Source: Holdemanella sp.
GTDB taxonomy: Bacteria; Bacillota_I; Bacilli_A; Erysipelotrichales; Erysipelotrichaceae
Reading direction: 5' to 3'
Length of the DNA: 21,549 nucleotides
NCBI GenBank assembly: GCA_021442845.1
Contig: JABUSD010000368.1
Span: 1 to 21,549 of the forward strand
In this document: positions 1,184 through 21,549 of the stretch, one piece after another
Layout: every line of letters begins with the position of its first letter
Numbering within the stretch: the stretch's first letter is position 1
Program-made: the position numbers and the translations under genes
Notes under the pieces: model-generated
What the model saw: the letters and a program-made list of their open reading frames with translations, nothing else
The model's database searches: none
What the model was told of the DNA's origin: nothing

Positions 1184-1192
1184 ATTATAACA
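1184..1192 (-). promoter_or_regulatory. Extended -10 promoter of ispD
   Basis: On the minus strand TGTTATAAT is a perfect extended -10 (TGnTATAAT) ending 9 nt before the ispD ATG. The expected start of transcription is 0-3 nt before the start codon. No -35 is visible, because that region is occupied by the preceding terminator. Confidence 0.65.
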
Positions 1193-6320: not shown

Positions 6321-6354
6321 CATATGCATATATACATTGGAAAGGATGATAAAA

Positions 6355-7419
6355 ATGGCAAAGGTAGATATTATTTCAGGATTTCTTGGTGCTGGAAAGA
6401 CAACCCTTATCAAAAAATTATTAGCTGGTCAGCTAAAAAATGAAAAAGTGGTATTAATAGAAAATGAATTTGGCGATGTTGGAATAGATGGAACATTTCT
6501 AAAGGAAGCAGGAATTGAAATCAAGGAAATCAATTCCGGATGCATCTGCTGTTCTCTTGTTGGAGATTTTAGAGAAGCATTGAAAAAAGTAATGGAAGAA
6601 TATGAACCAGAACGTTTGATTATTGAACCATCTGGTGTGGGAAAACTAAGCGATATTGAAGAAGCGGTAAAGGATGTCGGATTGGATGTCCATGCGCTTG
6701 TGACAGTTGCGGACGTAAATAAGATTAAGGTATATCATAGAAACTTTGGAGAGTTCTTTGATAACCAGATTGAAAATGCACAGATCATCATCTTCTCCCG
6801 TACACAGAAGGCAAATGATGAAAAAGTGGAAGAAATGGTTCATTTAGTTCATGAATTGAATCCTGATTCAAAATGCATTATTGCTCCATGGGACGATTTA
6901 AGCGATGAACAGATTTTAAAGGTAATGGATTCATTCCATCACCATGAACACGATGAAAACTGCACTTGTGGATGCCATGATCATGAACATCACCACCATG
7001 ACGAAGAACATGAGCACCATCATGATGAAGAATGCGAATGTGGGCACGAACATCACCATCATCATGATGAGGAATGCGAATGTGGACACGAACATCACCA
7101 TGAACATGATGAGAATTGCACTTGTGGATGTCATGACCATGATCATCACCATCATGGTGATGAAGAATTTACTTCCGTTGCCTATGAAAGTGCGCATAGC
7201 TATACAAAAGAAGAGCTTCAAGGTATGTTAGAACAGCTGGATGAGCATATCCTGCGTGCAAAAGGTATGGTGAAATCAAAAGATGGATGGTTGTTCTTTG
7301 ATTATGTACCTGAAGAAATCGATATCCGTGAAGGCCAGGTTCAGCCAATTGGACAGATTGTTGTGATTGGTTCAAAAGTAAATGAAAAAGAAATCAAGGA
7401 ATTGTTTAAGGTGGTGTAA
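6355..7419 (+). CDS. CobW/G3E-family GTPase metallochaperone with His/Cys-rich metal-binding insert
   Basis: Product of 354 aa from the ATG at 6355; the Shine-Dalgarno GGAAAGGA sits 7-8 nt upstream. An upstream in-frame TTG (6337) would place the start before this site, so it is rejected. Visible are the P-loop GFLGAGKTT (9-17), the conserved metal motif GCICC (62-66) and IEPSG. The usual NKxD base-recognition motif reads SRTQ here (about 148-151). Residues 195-268 form a low-complexity insert with 31 His and 10 Cys, then the C-terminal CobW domain follows. G3E GTPases insert or buffer metals such as Zn, Ni or Co. The array argues for metal binding, with zinc the likeliest but not proven. It is followed by a second CobW-like gene 3 nt downstream. 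Confidence 0.88.
   Translation: MAKVDIISGFLGAGKTTLIKKLLAGQLKNEKVVLIENEFGDVGIDGTFLKEAGIEIKEINSGCICCSLVGDFREALKKVMEEYEPERLIIEPSGVGKLSDIEEAVKDVGLDVHALVTVADVNKIKVYHRNFGEFFDNQIENAQIIIFSRTQKANDEKVEEMVHLVHELNPDSKCIIAPWDDLSDEQILKVMDSFHHHEHDENCTCGCHDHEHHHHDEEHEHHHDEECECGHEHHHHHDEECECGHEHHHEHDENCTCGCHDHDHHHHGDEEFTSVAYESAHSYTKEELQGMLEQLDEHILRAKGMVKSKDGWLFFDYVPEEIDIREGQVQPIGQIVVIGSKVNEKEIKELFKVV
6937..7155 (+). repeat. In-frame His/Cys repeat array in the CobW gene
   Basis: Five units each begin with Asp-Glu: DENCTCGCHDHEHHHH, DEEHEHHH, DEECECGHEHHHHH, DEECECGHEHHHEH and DENCTCGCHDHDHHHH. At DNA level the two central units (from 7024 and 7066) are near-identical 42-nt direct repeats, and the outer units (from 6952 and 7108) match each other. 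The array is therefore nearly symmetrical and probably grew by duplication. Confidence 0.85.
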
Positions 7420-13881: not shown

Positions 13882-15138
13882 CTATTTTCTCAATTCATAT
13901 CTTCGTATATCCGAGATACAGCGCTGGGATAGACCGATTGTAGCGCATATTGCCATCAAAGAAGATCCACCTTCACTGATAAACAACAATGGGATTCCTG
14001 TCATAGGAATCAAAGCACTTACCCCTCCTACATTCAGGGCAAAGTGAATAAATAAATAAGCACAATTTCCAGTTAATATGACCTTCTTTGAGGAATCTGT
14101 TGTCTTAAAGGCATAATATAACAGTCGATAGATTAACAGTCCATATAATAGGACCAGTAATCCTAATCCAAAGATTCCTGTTTCTTCTATCATAACCGCA
14201 AAAATATAATCACTTTCTGCCTGTGTCAGATATCCAAATTTACGGGATGAAGCGCCAAATCCCTTTCCAACAATACCAGAATCGGCAATACCATATAAGG
14301 CATTGGCTGGCTGGTATCCCTGTCCATATGGATCGTTATATGGGTTTTTGGCATTATCAATACGTACGGCAATATGGGAAAGTGGTGTATTTTCCAGAAG
14401 TTCTGTTAAGAAGTTGCTGTTTGCCATAACTATTACAACCCCTACAAATGCTCCAATAAAGGCAAATATGCAAAGCTTCTGCGCTTTTCTTGTCAATGGC
14501 ATATCAACCAGAATAAAACATATAAAAGCAATGAATCCGATGATTGCCAGCGTTCCAAAGTCTCTTTGCAAAGCAATTTCAATTCCAAAGATGATAAAGG
14601 CGACAATTGGGATTCTAAAAGCGGACTTGATTGTATTAAACTTTTTTGGCTTGTCCTCTATGCGCATAAACGCAATCGCAATTAATATAATCATCAGTGG
14701 CTTGACAAATTCAGCTGGCTGAATCGACAATCCCCCTGGCAAATGAATCCACGCACGAGATCCGTTAACGGCTGGAAACAGCAACGGCAAAGCGTTTATC
14801 ACCGCATATAACGCAACCGCTAATCCCTGAAATACCGAAAATAGGCGTAATGATAAAAAACGATTGACAAACCACAGCACTAGATATCCCGCACCCATAA
14901 AGATGATCTGTTTTATCAACGCTGTCGTTACAGCTGCATCCGATATAATCACATTTTCCCCTGCCGGTGTTCCAACTGTACCCACCGCGACAGAGGTAAT
15001 CATTAAAAGACCGATTACCATCAGTAAAAAGACGCAGACACTGATTATCTTATCGCTTTTTGGTGCTAATGCTAAAAGGCTGAATTTTCTTTTTTTCTCT
15101 GGTTTTACTCTTTTTAGTTTTCTTATTTTATTCGACAT
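13882..15138 (-). CDS. SEDS-family peptidoglycan glycosyltransferase (FtsW/RodA type)
   Basis: Product of 418 aa, with a basic N-terminal tail (1-28) and about ten membrane segments. SEDS proteins polymerise lipid II together with a class B penicillin-binding protein. Recognisable blocks are NGSRAWIHLP...SIQPAEFVKP, QRDFGT (cf. the conserved acidic site in RodA/FtsW), NPYNDPYGQGYQ, ESDYIFAVMIEETG and GIPLLFISEGGSS. The last is closer to FtsW/SpoVE than to RodA, but I do not assign one. No MreC or division genes are next to it; it heads the operon with coaD, rnc and polC. The ATG lacks a Shine-Dalgarno, and an extended -10 ends 6 nt upstream, so the mRNA is probably leaderless. Confidence 0.9.
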   Translation of the reverse strand: MSNKIRKLKRVKPEKKRKFSLLALAPKSDKIISVCVFLLMVIGLLMITSVAVGTVGTPAGENVIISDAAVTTALIKQIIFMGAGYLVLWFVNRFLSLRLFSVFQGLAVALYAVINALPLLFPAVNGSRAWIHLPGGLSIQPAEFVKPLMIILIAIAFMRIEDKPKKFNTIKSAFRIPIVAFIIFGIEIALQRDFGTLAIIGFIAFICFILVDMPLTRKAQKLCIFAFIGAFVGVVIVMANSNFLTELLENTPLSHIAVRIDNAKNPYNDPYGQGYQPANALYGIADSGIVGKGFGASSRKFGYLTQAESDYIFAVMIEETGIFGLGLLVLLYGLLIYRLLYYAFKTTDSSKKVILTGNCAYLFIHFALNVGGVSALIPMTGIPLLFISEGGSSLMAICATIGLSQRCISDIRRYELRK

Positions 15139-15144
15139 ACAACC

Positions 15145-15153
15145 ATTCTACCA
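15145..15153 (-). promoter_or_regulatory. Extended -10 promoter of ftsW/rodA
   Basis: Minus-strand TGGTAGAAT ends 6 nt before the ATG at 15138. With the usual 7-nt distance the transcript would start at the A of the ATG. No good -35 at 16-18 nt spacing; a TTGACA occurs further upstream (25-nt spacing), too far to pair with this -10. Confidence 0.55.
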
Positions 15154-15174: not shown

Positions 15175-15202
15175 TTGTCAAAAAAAGAAAAATACATATA
15201 AT
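15175..15202 (+). promoter_or_regulatory. Promoter of def
   Basis: TTGTCA (15175-15180), a 16-nt spacer and TATAAT (15197-15202). The start of transcription would be near 15209 and GAGG at 15212-15215 serves as the ribosome-binding site, so the leader is short but not leaderless. Confidence 0.7.
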
Positions 15203-15222: not shown

Positions 15223-15774
15223 ATGAAGATTACATGTGAAAATATAATCCTGGATACAGACCCAAGAATTCGAATGAAAAGTGAACCTGTATCCCTTCCG
15301 TTAAGTGACGAAGACAAAGAATTGTTGAGCGCTATGCTTGAATATGTACGTAATTCCCAGGATGAAGAAATTGCCCAGCAAGACAATCTACAGCCAGCCG
15401 TAGGAATTGCTGCCATCCAGGTAGGTGTTCCTAAACAGCTGATTGCGGTTGTCATCCCTGAAGAAGACAAAGTATATGAAGCGGCTCTTGCGAATCCAAA
15501 AATCATTTCTGAATCGGTACAGAATTCGTATTTAGACAATGGTGAAGGATGTTTGTCTGTTCATGATGTCCATGAAGGTCACGTATTTAGACATGCTCGT
15601 ATCAAAGTTCGCGGATATGATTTAATACAGGATAAGAAAGTAGTAATTTCTGCTGAAGGTTTCTTTGCGATTGCACTTCAACATGAAATCGATCACCTGT
15701 CTGGAAAATTATTCTATGATCATATCGATGAAAACGATCCATGGAAAGAAGATGAAGAAGCGGAAGTTATTTAA
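15223..15774 (+). CDS. def: Peptide deformylase
   Basis: Product of 183 aa, the length of the longer Gram-positive (type 2) enzymes. It removes the N-formyl group from new proteins, using a metal ion. The three motifs are present: VGIAAIQVG (60-68; usually GxGLAAxQ), EGCLS (108-112) with metal ligand Cys110, and HEIDH (154-158) with ligands His154/His158 and catalytic Glu155. The ribosome-binding site GAGG lies upstream of the ATG. It is a single-gene unit with its own promoter and terminator. The acidic tail (DENDPWKEDEEAE) is within the normal range. Confidence 0.95.
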   Translation: MKITCENIILDTDPRIRMKSEPVSLPLSDEDKELLSAMLEYVRNSQDEEIAQQDNLQPAVGIAAIQVGVPKQLIAVVIPEEDKVYEAALANPKIISESVQNSYLDNGEGCLSVHDVHEGHVFRHARIKVRGYDLIQDKKVVISAEGFFAIALQHEIDHLSGKLFYDHIDENDPWKEDEEAEVI

Positions 15775-17650: not shown

Positions 17651-17674
17651 AGGAAGTAGTCATACTTCCTTTTT
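17651..17674 (+). terminator. Terminator of the RNase J gene
   Basis: AGGAAGTA-GTCA-TACTTCCT followed by TTTT. The -10 element of the next gene begins 4 nt after its T-run. Confidence 0.85.
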
Positions 17675-17677
17675 ATG

Positions 17678-17686
17678 TGCTAAAAT
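17678..17686 (+). promoter_or_regulatory. Extended -10 promoter of the metallophosphoesterase gene
   Basis: TGCTAAAAT, matching TGnTAnAAT, ends 7 nt before the ATG at 17694, so transcription should begin at or next to the start codon. The -35 region is occupied by the RNase J terminator. Confidence 0.5.
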
Positions 17687-17693
17687 GTAAGGC

Positions 17694-18551
17694 ATGAATA
17701 AAATCCAGAAAAGACTATTGATTCTCGTTAGTATATTGACCGTTATTTCGCTTACAATCAATATAACGCTGCTCCTGTCATTCTATGTTACACCGGATAA
17801 GTTAACCATCAATAGTTATACCTTAAAAAGTGAATTGATTCCTGCATCCCTGGATGAAGTAACCATCGTATATTTTACAGATCTGCAATATGGTGAATTC
17901 CAGAATGATGAGCGCTGTGATCAGCTATTTTCTGAAATAGAGAATTTGAACCCAGACATCCTATTGTTTGGCGGGGATTTATATGATAAAAGCTATGCCT
18001 TTACAGATGATACCAACAACAAGCTTACGCAGTATCTTTCCAATATAGATGCTCCTTTAGGCAAGTTTGCCCTTTATGGAGAAAATGATATCGCTTCAGA
18101 GACATACCAGAATGCCATTAATTCCATATTCAGCAAAAGTGAATTTGAAATCATTCGCAATTCTTCCGTTAAGATTACAAACCAGAAAAATGAATATATC
18201 AATCTATTTGGATTTGATATAGACGCCAATGTAGAAAATATCAATAAGCTATCTTCAAAGACTAGCTTTGACATTCTTCTTACCCATTATCCTGATCATC
18301 TGGTAAAAGATGATCTTATGGATGAAAACATTGATTTTGCCATAGCGGGTCATTCTCATGATTCACAGATTACCTTCCCTCTTTATGGCAGCTATAAAGA
18401 AGTAAAAGGTTCAAAAAAAATGAATCGCAACAATCGGCAGAAGCTTAGTTTTGAATATATCCTATCTTCTGGTGTTGGCTGTACAGGAATCAATGCTCGT
18501 TTAGGTTCTACTCCAGAGATTCTATATATCATTTTAAAAAGCGATAAATAA
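17694..18551 (+). CDS. Membrane-anchored calcineurin-like metallophosphoesterase with altered active-site motifs
   Basis: Product of 285 aa. One N-terminal membrane segment (about 7-31) probably anchors the domain outside the membrane. The fold is of the YkuE-like metallophosphoesterase type: FTDLQYG (61-67), GGDLYD (93-98), YGEND (128-132), THYPDH (197-202), GHSHDSQI (219-226) and SSGVGCTG near the end. Against the family pattern (DxH, GD, GNHD, GHxH), the first motif has Gln65 where His is normal, and GNHD reads GEND, so the bridging Asn and catalytic His are replaced. His198, His220 and His222 are kept. Activity may be changed or lost. YkuE-like proteins act on lipid or nucleotide phosphoesters; the substrate here is unknown. 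No proper Shine-Dalgarno: AAGG ends 1 nt before the ATG. Confidence 0.85.
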   Translation: MNKIQKRLLILVSILTVISLTINITLLLSFYVTPDKLTINSYTLKSELIPASLDEVTIVYFTDLQYGEFQNDERCDQLFSEIENLNPDILLFGGDLYDKSYAFTDDTNNKLTQYLSNIDAPLGKFALYGENDIASETYQNAINSIFSKSEFEIIRNSSVKITNQKNEYINLFGFDIDANVENINKLSSKTSFDILLTHYPDHLVKDDLMDENIDFAIAGHSHDSQITFPLYGSYKEVKGSKKMNRNNRQKLSFEYILSSGVGCTGINARLGSTPEILYIILKSDK

Positions 18552-21294: not shown

Positions 21295-21392
21295 AGGGTG
21301 TTGCATTCTGTATTATTCCAGACAATGATGAAAAAGGATACGCATATTCAAAAAAAGTTTAAATTCTAACAAACATCTATAAAGAAAACAAC

Positions 21393-21403
21393 TGGTATAT
21401 AAT
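21393..21403 (+). promoter_or_regulatory. Extended -10 element before the right-edge RNA/ORF
   Basis: TGGTATATAAT contains TGnTATATA and TATAAT. Transcription would start about 21408-21410, at or next to an ATG (21408). The -35 position shows no match. Confidence 0.5.
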
Positions 21404-21549
21404 TTCCATGAAAGAGAAGATGCAAAACGAGGTTGCTGTGAGAAGGAGAATTCATCATATTTCGACAGGCGGCCTACCCACAGTGAAAAGTGCCGACGAA
21501 TCCTTCACGTTGTATCCAGGGCATACAACAGACTGAAGATTTATGGAAT
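21404..21549 (+). ncRNA. Candidate structured RNA (or 42-codon ORF), cut by the window edge
   Basis: This stretch is more GC-rich than the intergenic DNA around it. Helices can be drawn: GTGAGAAGGA (21438-21447) with TCCTTCAC (21501-21508, one bulge); a 7-bp hairpin GTTGTAT-CCAGGGC-ATACAAC (21509-21529); and a possible closing pair TTCCAT / ATGGAA (21404-21409 with 21543-21548). I do not recognise a known RNA family. Alternatively, an ORF runs from ATG 21408 to TGA 21536 (42 aa, beginning MKEKMQNEVAVRRR) without Shine-Dalgarno; its codon choice (AGG, CTA, CCC, GGC) differs from the neighbours, which favours RNA. It may be a leader of a gene beyond the window. Confidence 0.35.

Follow-up and report, generated by a model that had tools for sequence, protein, structure and literature searches.

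Leaderless messenger RNAs (mRNAs), which begin at the start codon itself, are already documented in several lineages of Firmicutes. Of 209 Firmicutes genomes, 56 have predicted leaderless genes, at a mean of 4.2% of genes, and these are found mostly in Lactobacillales and Mycoplasma (Zheng et al. 2011, PMC3160421). Measurements reported since then put 8.6% of the mRNAs of Streptococcus pyogenes (PMC6431027) and 70 of the 768 operons (9%) of Streptococcus pneumoniae D39 (PMC6212727) in this class, with less than 1% in Enterococcus (PMC7724050) and nine leaderless transcripts in Mycoplasma gallisepticum (PMC4245973). The predictions in Firmicutes and the measurements in streptococci run counter to one premise of the original prediction made for the DNA analysed here, namely that leaderless mRNAs are not a standard feature described for Bacillota. 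That DNA, hereafter the window, is the whole 21,549-nucleotide (nt) stretch of contig JABUSD010000368.1 from Holdemanella sp. (assembly GCA_021442845.1), which carries an ftsW/rodA gene, ispD and a metallophosphoesterase gene, all with a -10 promoter element close to the start codon. Position statistics, base composition and orthologue comparison make it very probable that a sigma-A promoter sets the transcription start (+1) at the first base of the start ATG in ftsW/rodA, in the metallophosphoesterase gene and in about 4% of the genes sampled from this genome.

The elements of ftsW/rodA are as follows:

15145..15153, minus strand: extended -10 element TGGTAGAAT, read from the sequence, with its hexamer TAGAAT at 15150-15145
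15136..15138, minus strand: ATG of ftsW/rodA, its A at 15138 being the predicted transcription start
13882..15138, minus strand: ftsW/rodA coding sequence, 418 amino acids (Pfam FTSW_RODA_SPOVE, E 3.5e-64)

On the minus strand TGGTAGAAT is followed by GGTTGT and then by the ftsW ATG, so that the -10 element ends 6 nt before the start codon and a pyrimidine precedes its A. No AGGA, GGAG or GAGG lies between the -10 element and the ATG or just upstream, and the ATG at 15138 is the first possible start of ftsW because the TAG within the -10 element is an in-frame stop. The downstream genes of the same run, which we take to be polC, rnc and coaD, carry AAGGAG-type sites. The sequence thus agrees with what had been read from this locus, both for the 6-nt spacing without a Shine-Dalgarno (SD) site at ftsW and for the clear SD sites of operon-internal genes. 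In the mechanism that we propose, a sigma-A promoter, in many cases with an extended -10 element, would sit 6-7 nt ahead of the ATG and place +1 on its A; the mRNA would then begin with 5'-AUG, and ribosomes recognising this terminal AUG would translate it without an SD site. In other bacteria, a 70S ribosome or a ribosome loaded with initiator tRNA is thought to bind the 5' AUG directly, favoured by initiation factor 2 (IF2), and leaderless translation depends on the ratio of IF2 to IF3 (PMC6431027, PMC10783764).

The window's own genome (G000, 2.2 Mb in 430 contigs) was sampled over 820 kb in 61 stretches, giving 681 open reading frames with ATG as the likely first start, and was compared with samples of Floccifex porci (G001, same genus; 699 frames in 800 kb) and of a genome from another genus (G045; 298 frames in 332 kb). 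We counted TAnAAT by its distance to the first ATG, with the mean per position over spacings of 0-5 and 8-14 nt as background. A spike one base wide stood at 6 nt in the own sample (23 of 681 frames against 3.69 per position, Poisson P 1.3e-11), in G001 (25 of 699 against 3.38) and in G045 (25 of 298 against 0.31), with P ≤ 1.3e-11 in all three. The own sample also had a shoulder at 7 nt (n = 10, P 0.005); no clear one was present at that spacing in G001 (n = 5, P 0.25). The counts rose again, more broadly, at 17-30 nt, a second mode that predicted ordinary leadered promoters produce. When one mismatch to TATAAT was allowed at 6-7 nt, the element was present in 41 of 681 own frames, 42 of 699 in G001 and 40 of 298 in G045, or about 4.1%, 3.5% and 12.2% once the background at 45-65 nt was subtracted. 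Over the whole own genome, TGNTANAATN{5,9}ATG matched 97 times and its reversed counterpart 23 times; with the spacing fixed at 6 nt there were 36 matches.

Chance might seem to explain such words, since the own sample has 36.5% G+C, TAnAAT is common in its AT-rich intergenic DNA, and the raw number of words at 6 nt exceeds that at 40-44 nt by a factor of only 1.96. Single sites may indeed be fortuitous, but a spike this narrow in each of three genomes and the independent signal at the base preceding the ATG refute chance as the cause of the whole class, and we regard it as the least credible of the explanations considered. A pyrimidine occupies that position in 29 of 30 of the 6-nt sites of the own sample, 33 of 35 in G001 and 29 of 32 in G045, against 289/444, 282/437 and 83/152 (65, 65 and 55%) in the respective SD genes (P about 1e-4 each). 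Bacterial transcription start sites usually prefer a pyrimidine at -1 and a purine at +1. The spike is present for ATG and absent for GTG, TTG and the control codons CTG and ATT; bacterial leaderless mRNAs have AUG, and rarely GUG, as their start codon. In the composition of the sites, a weak TT(G)-like -35 signal is further apparent at -35 to -33, corresponding to a 17-nt spacer, and TG precedes the -10 element in 12/33, 11/30 and 9/30 cases (own, G001, G045), against 44/182, 44/187 and 7/38 where the element lies at 17-40 nt. A recurring leaderless-type class in this genome, as originally predicted, is well supported because the position statistics in three genomes of two genera, the restriction to ATG, the pyrimidine at -1 and the orthologue comparison described below all point to it; the genome scan proposed with that prediction, run here in a variant form, returned the enrichment given above.

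These -10 words could also be real promoters of ordinary mRNAs whose true starts are later in-frame codons preceded by a leader. Twelve of the 41 own leaderless-type genes do have an SD start within 40 codons; this rate, however, is no higher than in SD genes (134/443), and G001 (14/42 against 135/437) and G045 (9/40 against 34/149) gave comparable counts. Later in-frame starts with SD sites, named in the original prediction as an observation that would speak against it, are therefore no commoner in this class. The dependence of the spike on ATG argues in the same direction, as do several proteins in which an active-site motif adjoins the initial methionine. Pfam, run on 19 of the 41 genes and on ispD, identified a PP-loop protein, an amino acid kinase and a CobW GTPase with SGGPDS, KYGGTS and GFLGAGKT, respectively, within about 10 residues of it; we take these to be active-site motifs, and their position leaves no room for a later start. 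Nearly all ispD orthologues also align from residue 1 to 3. Misplaced starts are thus a very unlikely source of the pattern, and leaderless starts remain our preferred explanation. Transporters, regulators and enzymes are all among the families assigned by Pfam, and we saw no common theme in them.

The two other genes of the window have the following elements:

1184..1192, minus strand: extended -10 element TGTTATAAT of ispD, 9 nt before the ATG at 1174 (Pfam IspD)
17678..17686, plus strand: extended -10 element TGCTAAAAT of the metallophosphoesterase gene, 7 nt before the ATG at 17694 (Pfam Metallophos)
17651..17670, plus strand: terminator-like hairpin after the preceding gene, its T run adjoining the metallophosphoesterase -10 element

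Both genes had been described as sharing the ftsW layout, and both do show an extended -10 element; the spacing at ispD is 9 nt, however, with a predicted leader of about 3 nt (ACU), and ispD is on this evidence a near case, not strictly leaderless. The gene preceding the metallophosphoesterase gene is presumably RNase J-like. An ATG at 21408 (TGGTATATAATTTCCATG), which had been listed as a further instance, was rejected: 4 nt separate its TATAAT from the ATG, the distance from the TG to the hexamer is 3 nt instead of 1, so that this is not an extended -10 element, and the frame stops after 42 codons.

Orthologues were compared at 30 loci per gene, the best of 53 (ftsW), 50 (ispD) and 54 (metallophosphoesterase) matching genomes among 57 searched, and a locus was automatically labelled leaderless where an ATG with a near -10 element at 6-9 nt came ahead of any SD start. 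In six of the 30 (the own genome G000, G042, G001, G051, G047 and G045), the spacing between TGnTAnAAT and the ftsW ATG was exactly 6 nt, G001 having the same sequence upstream of ftsW as the own genome. With two more at 9 nt, the labels for ftsW were 8 leaderless, 18 SD and 4 unclear; those for ispD were 10, 16 and 4, where the leaderless label is doubtful in G050, G005 and G054 and the SD label in G011 and G013 (9 nt by eye); those for the metallophosphoesterase gene were 8, 17 and 5, the leaderless label being doubtful in G024 and G039. Because ftsW orthologues hold the 6-nt layout (6) as well as SD leaders (18) among the 30, genes would switch between the two states, and some SD-led ftsW genes keep an extended -10 element farther upstream of the leader (G022, G053, G044). 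On a tree of the 27 of 30 FtsW proteins longer than 300 amino acids, the leaderless label has to change 5 times, and well-supported branches force 3 or more of these changes; 26 of 500 label shuffles were as low as 5.

For ispD, the element lies at 9 nt in the own genome, G001, G042, G011 and G013 and at 6 nt in G029, G021 and G028, all closer relatives, and more distant orthologues mostly have SD leaders. ACT precedes the ATG in the ispD of the own genome, G001 and G042 (L092, L093, L095), all with the 9-nt spacing, which suggests a constant 3-nt leader. The metallophosphoesterase gene is of the leaderless type in the own genome (7 nt), in G013 and G021 (6 nt; the G013 copy has one in-frame stop) and in G011 (9 nt), and has SD leaders in G001 and G051. 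Among reciprocal best pairs of the own genome and G001, both members had the state in 4 of 227, where 0.6 were expected (P 0.001). Within the genus, the predicted state is thus kept above chance, yet switches often.

Several observations weigh against leaderless starts as the explanation of the class. Matches to TTGACA are no better than in leadered promoters (13/33, 15/30 and 7/30 in the own sample, G001 and G045, against 66/182, 61/187 and 16/38). Conservation is low: of the 20 pairs of own and G001 genes in which one or both had the state, it was in both in 4, in the own genome only in 12 and in G001 only in 4, by strict TAnAAT, which misses some likely cases such as TATATT at 6 nt in G001 for the own gene at L067:9812; no pair shared the state among 59 of own and G045 genes or 70 of G001 and G045 genes (0/8 in each comparison where either had it). 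At spacings of 6-7 nt the -10 element takes up the bases where an SD site would lie, so that the lack of SD sites is in part a necessity, and for this reason we did not use this lack as independent evidence. Finally, any single gene may have a second, upstream promoter giving a leader.

If such promoters were general, translation would come mainly from leadered mRNAs and the leaderless transcript would be a minor product. There is a precedent in Clostridium phytofermentans, where 4% of transcription starts were potentially leaderless, generally with another start upstream and a ribosome-binding site (PMC5171806). Here, however, an SD match of at least 5 nt was found in 1 of the 33 own genes with a 6-7 nt spacing, against 73% of the 160 with a -10 element at 17-40 nt, and there is often little room for a leader: a terminator-like hairpin with the end of its stem 20-40 nt upstream of the ATG was present at 12 of the 41 leaderless-type genes and at 12 of 140 leadered ones (P 0.0014), in a comparison where the 80-nt stretch considered leaves leadered genes less room. 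The hairpin excess was not significant in G001 (5/42 against 9/157) or in G045 (3/40 against 2/34); the metallophosphoesterase gene of the window has a hairpin of this type. A dominant leadered transcript throughout the class seems very improbable to us, about as much so as misplaced start codons, and promoters that place +1 on the ATG account better for these genes.

How far does the layout extend? In 247 genomes of the class, all at least 90% complete, we compared the raw number of extended words at 6 nt with that at 40-44 nt, a control that includes real promoters and makes the ratios cautious. The ratios cover 135 of the 247, namely all listed genomes of families f1, f2, f5, f8, f9, f13, f16 and f19; those for f11 and f12 were taken from the first genomes of each list, and the remaining families do not enter them. 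They were raised in f1, the family of the window, which we take to be Erysipelotrichaceae (1.58, 23 genomes), and in f8 (1.98, 28 genomes), and not in f2, the other family drawn from the order (0.82, 10 genomes), or in f5, which has small genomes (0.63, 21 genomes); the others were 1.19 (f19), 1.07 (f13), 0.91 (f16), 0.68 (f11), 0.63 (f9) and 0.61 (f12). Because values within f1 run from 5.8 (G045) to 0.49 (G041), the trait is patchy there. Family f8 lies outside the order, and its genus g140 combines high ratios with low counts.

The closest described systems differ from this one in several ways. Zheng et al. 2011 report for Firmicutes a TAtAAT at a fixed distance from the start, with a preceding TG in several low-GC genomes, as here; the Firmicutes cases that they predict, by contrast, lie mainly in Lactobacillales and Mycoplasma (mean 18.3% in five Mycoplasma genomes), and the string "Erysipelo" is absent from the main text (PMC3160421). 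In the Mollicutes Mesoplasma florum (PMC7745072) and M. gallisepticum (PMC4245973), transcription is likewise reported to start on the first base of start codons, and in M. florum mostly 6 or 7 bases from the -10 element, the two spacings enriched here; these cases, however, comprise few genes, nine in each paper, and reduced genomes. In S. pneumoniae D39, another family, leaderless pbp2A is reported to be efficiently translated in a reporter (PMC6212727), and the evidence there comes from RNA sequencing, against sequence alone in our case. The open-licence literature searched with the terms Erysipelotrich and Erysipelothrix yielded no description of leaderless mRNAs in Erysipelotrichaceae. 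A type of start already known in streptococci and mycoplasmas thus appears, from sequence statistics, to extend to another branch, the Erysipelotrichaceae. More speculatively, this family may have a patchy, fast-switching leaderless system that reaches more than one gene in ten in some genera, flips between SD and leaderless states while keeping the promoter, relies on tuned ribosomes or initiation factors, and forms a bridge between Lactobacillales and Mollicutes, a scenario that we consider possible but doubtful. In such genomes, gene finders that expect SD sites may misplace starts, and ftsW and ispD orthologues in both states within one gut clade would allow the cost and regulation of leaderless translation to be compared.

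Next to ftsW/rodA, a divergent gene starts at 15223 and is leadered, with GAGGT; we take it to encode peptide deformylase. Its promoter is as follows:

15175..15202, plus strand: promoter-like pair TTGTCA-16-TATAAT of the divergent gene, from the sequence

A TTGACA considered as the -35 element of ftsW was rejected, as it lies 25 nt from the -10 element and is the complement of the -35 element of the divergent gene.

At another locus of the own genome (L016, G000:C16, 5000-5105), a regulator (CoA_binding and Put_DNA-bind_N), presumably Rex-like, and a prephenate dehydratase gene are divergent, each with a -10 element 6 nt before its ATG; this single gap of 80 bp would hold two leaderless promoters. 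Elsewhere in the survey, identical words recur within a genome, TGGTATAATTATAGTATG at least 6 times in G215 and TGATATAATTGAAGTATG at least 3 times in G168, which suggests that a gene or element starting in this way is repeated. At the end of the window (21380-21549), a -10-like TATAAT is followed by no long frame and no credible Rfam match up to the window end, the only match near 21408 being tsr26 on the other strand (21.6 bits against a gathering score of 141, E 0.48); this stretch is perhaps an unlisted RNA. Finally, the nucleotide-binding protein encoded at 6337-7419, which has to us the look of a CobW protein, contains a long insert of repeats rich in His, Asp and Cys.
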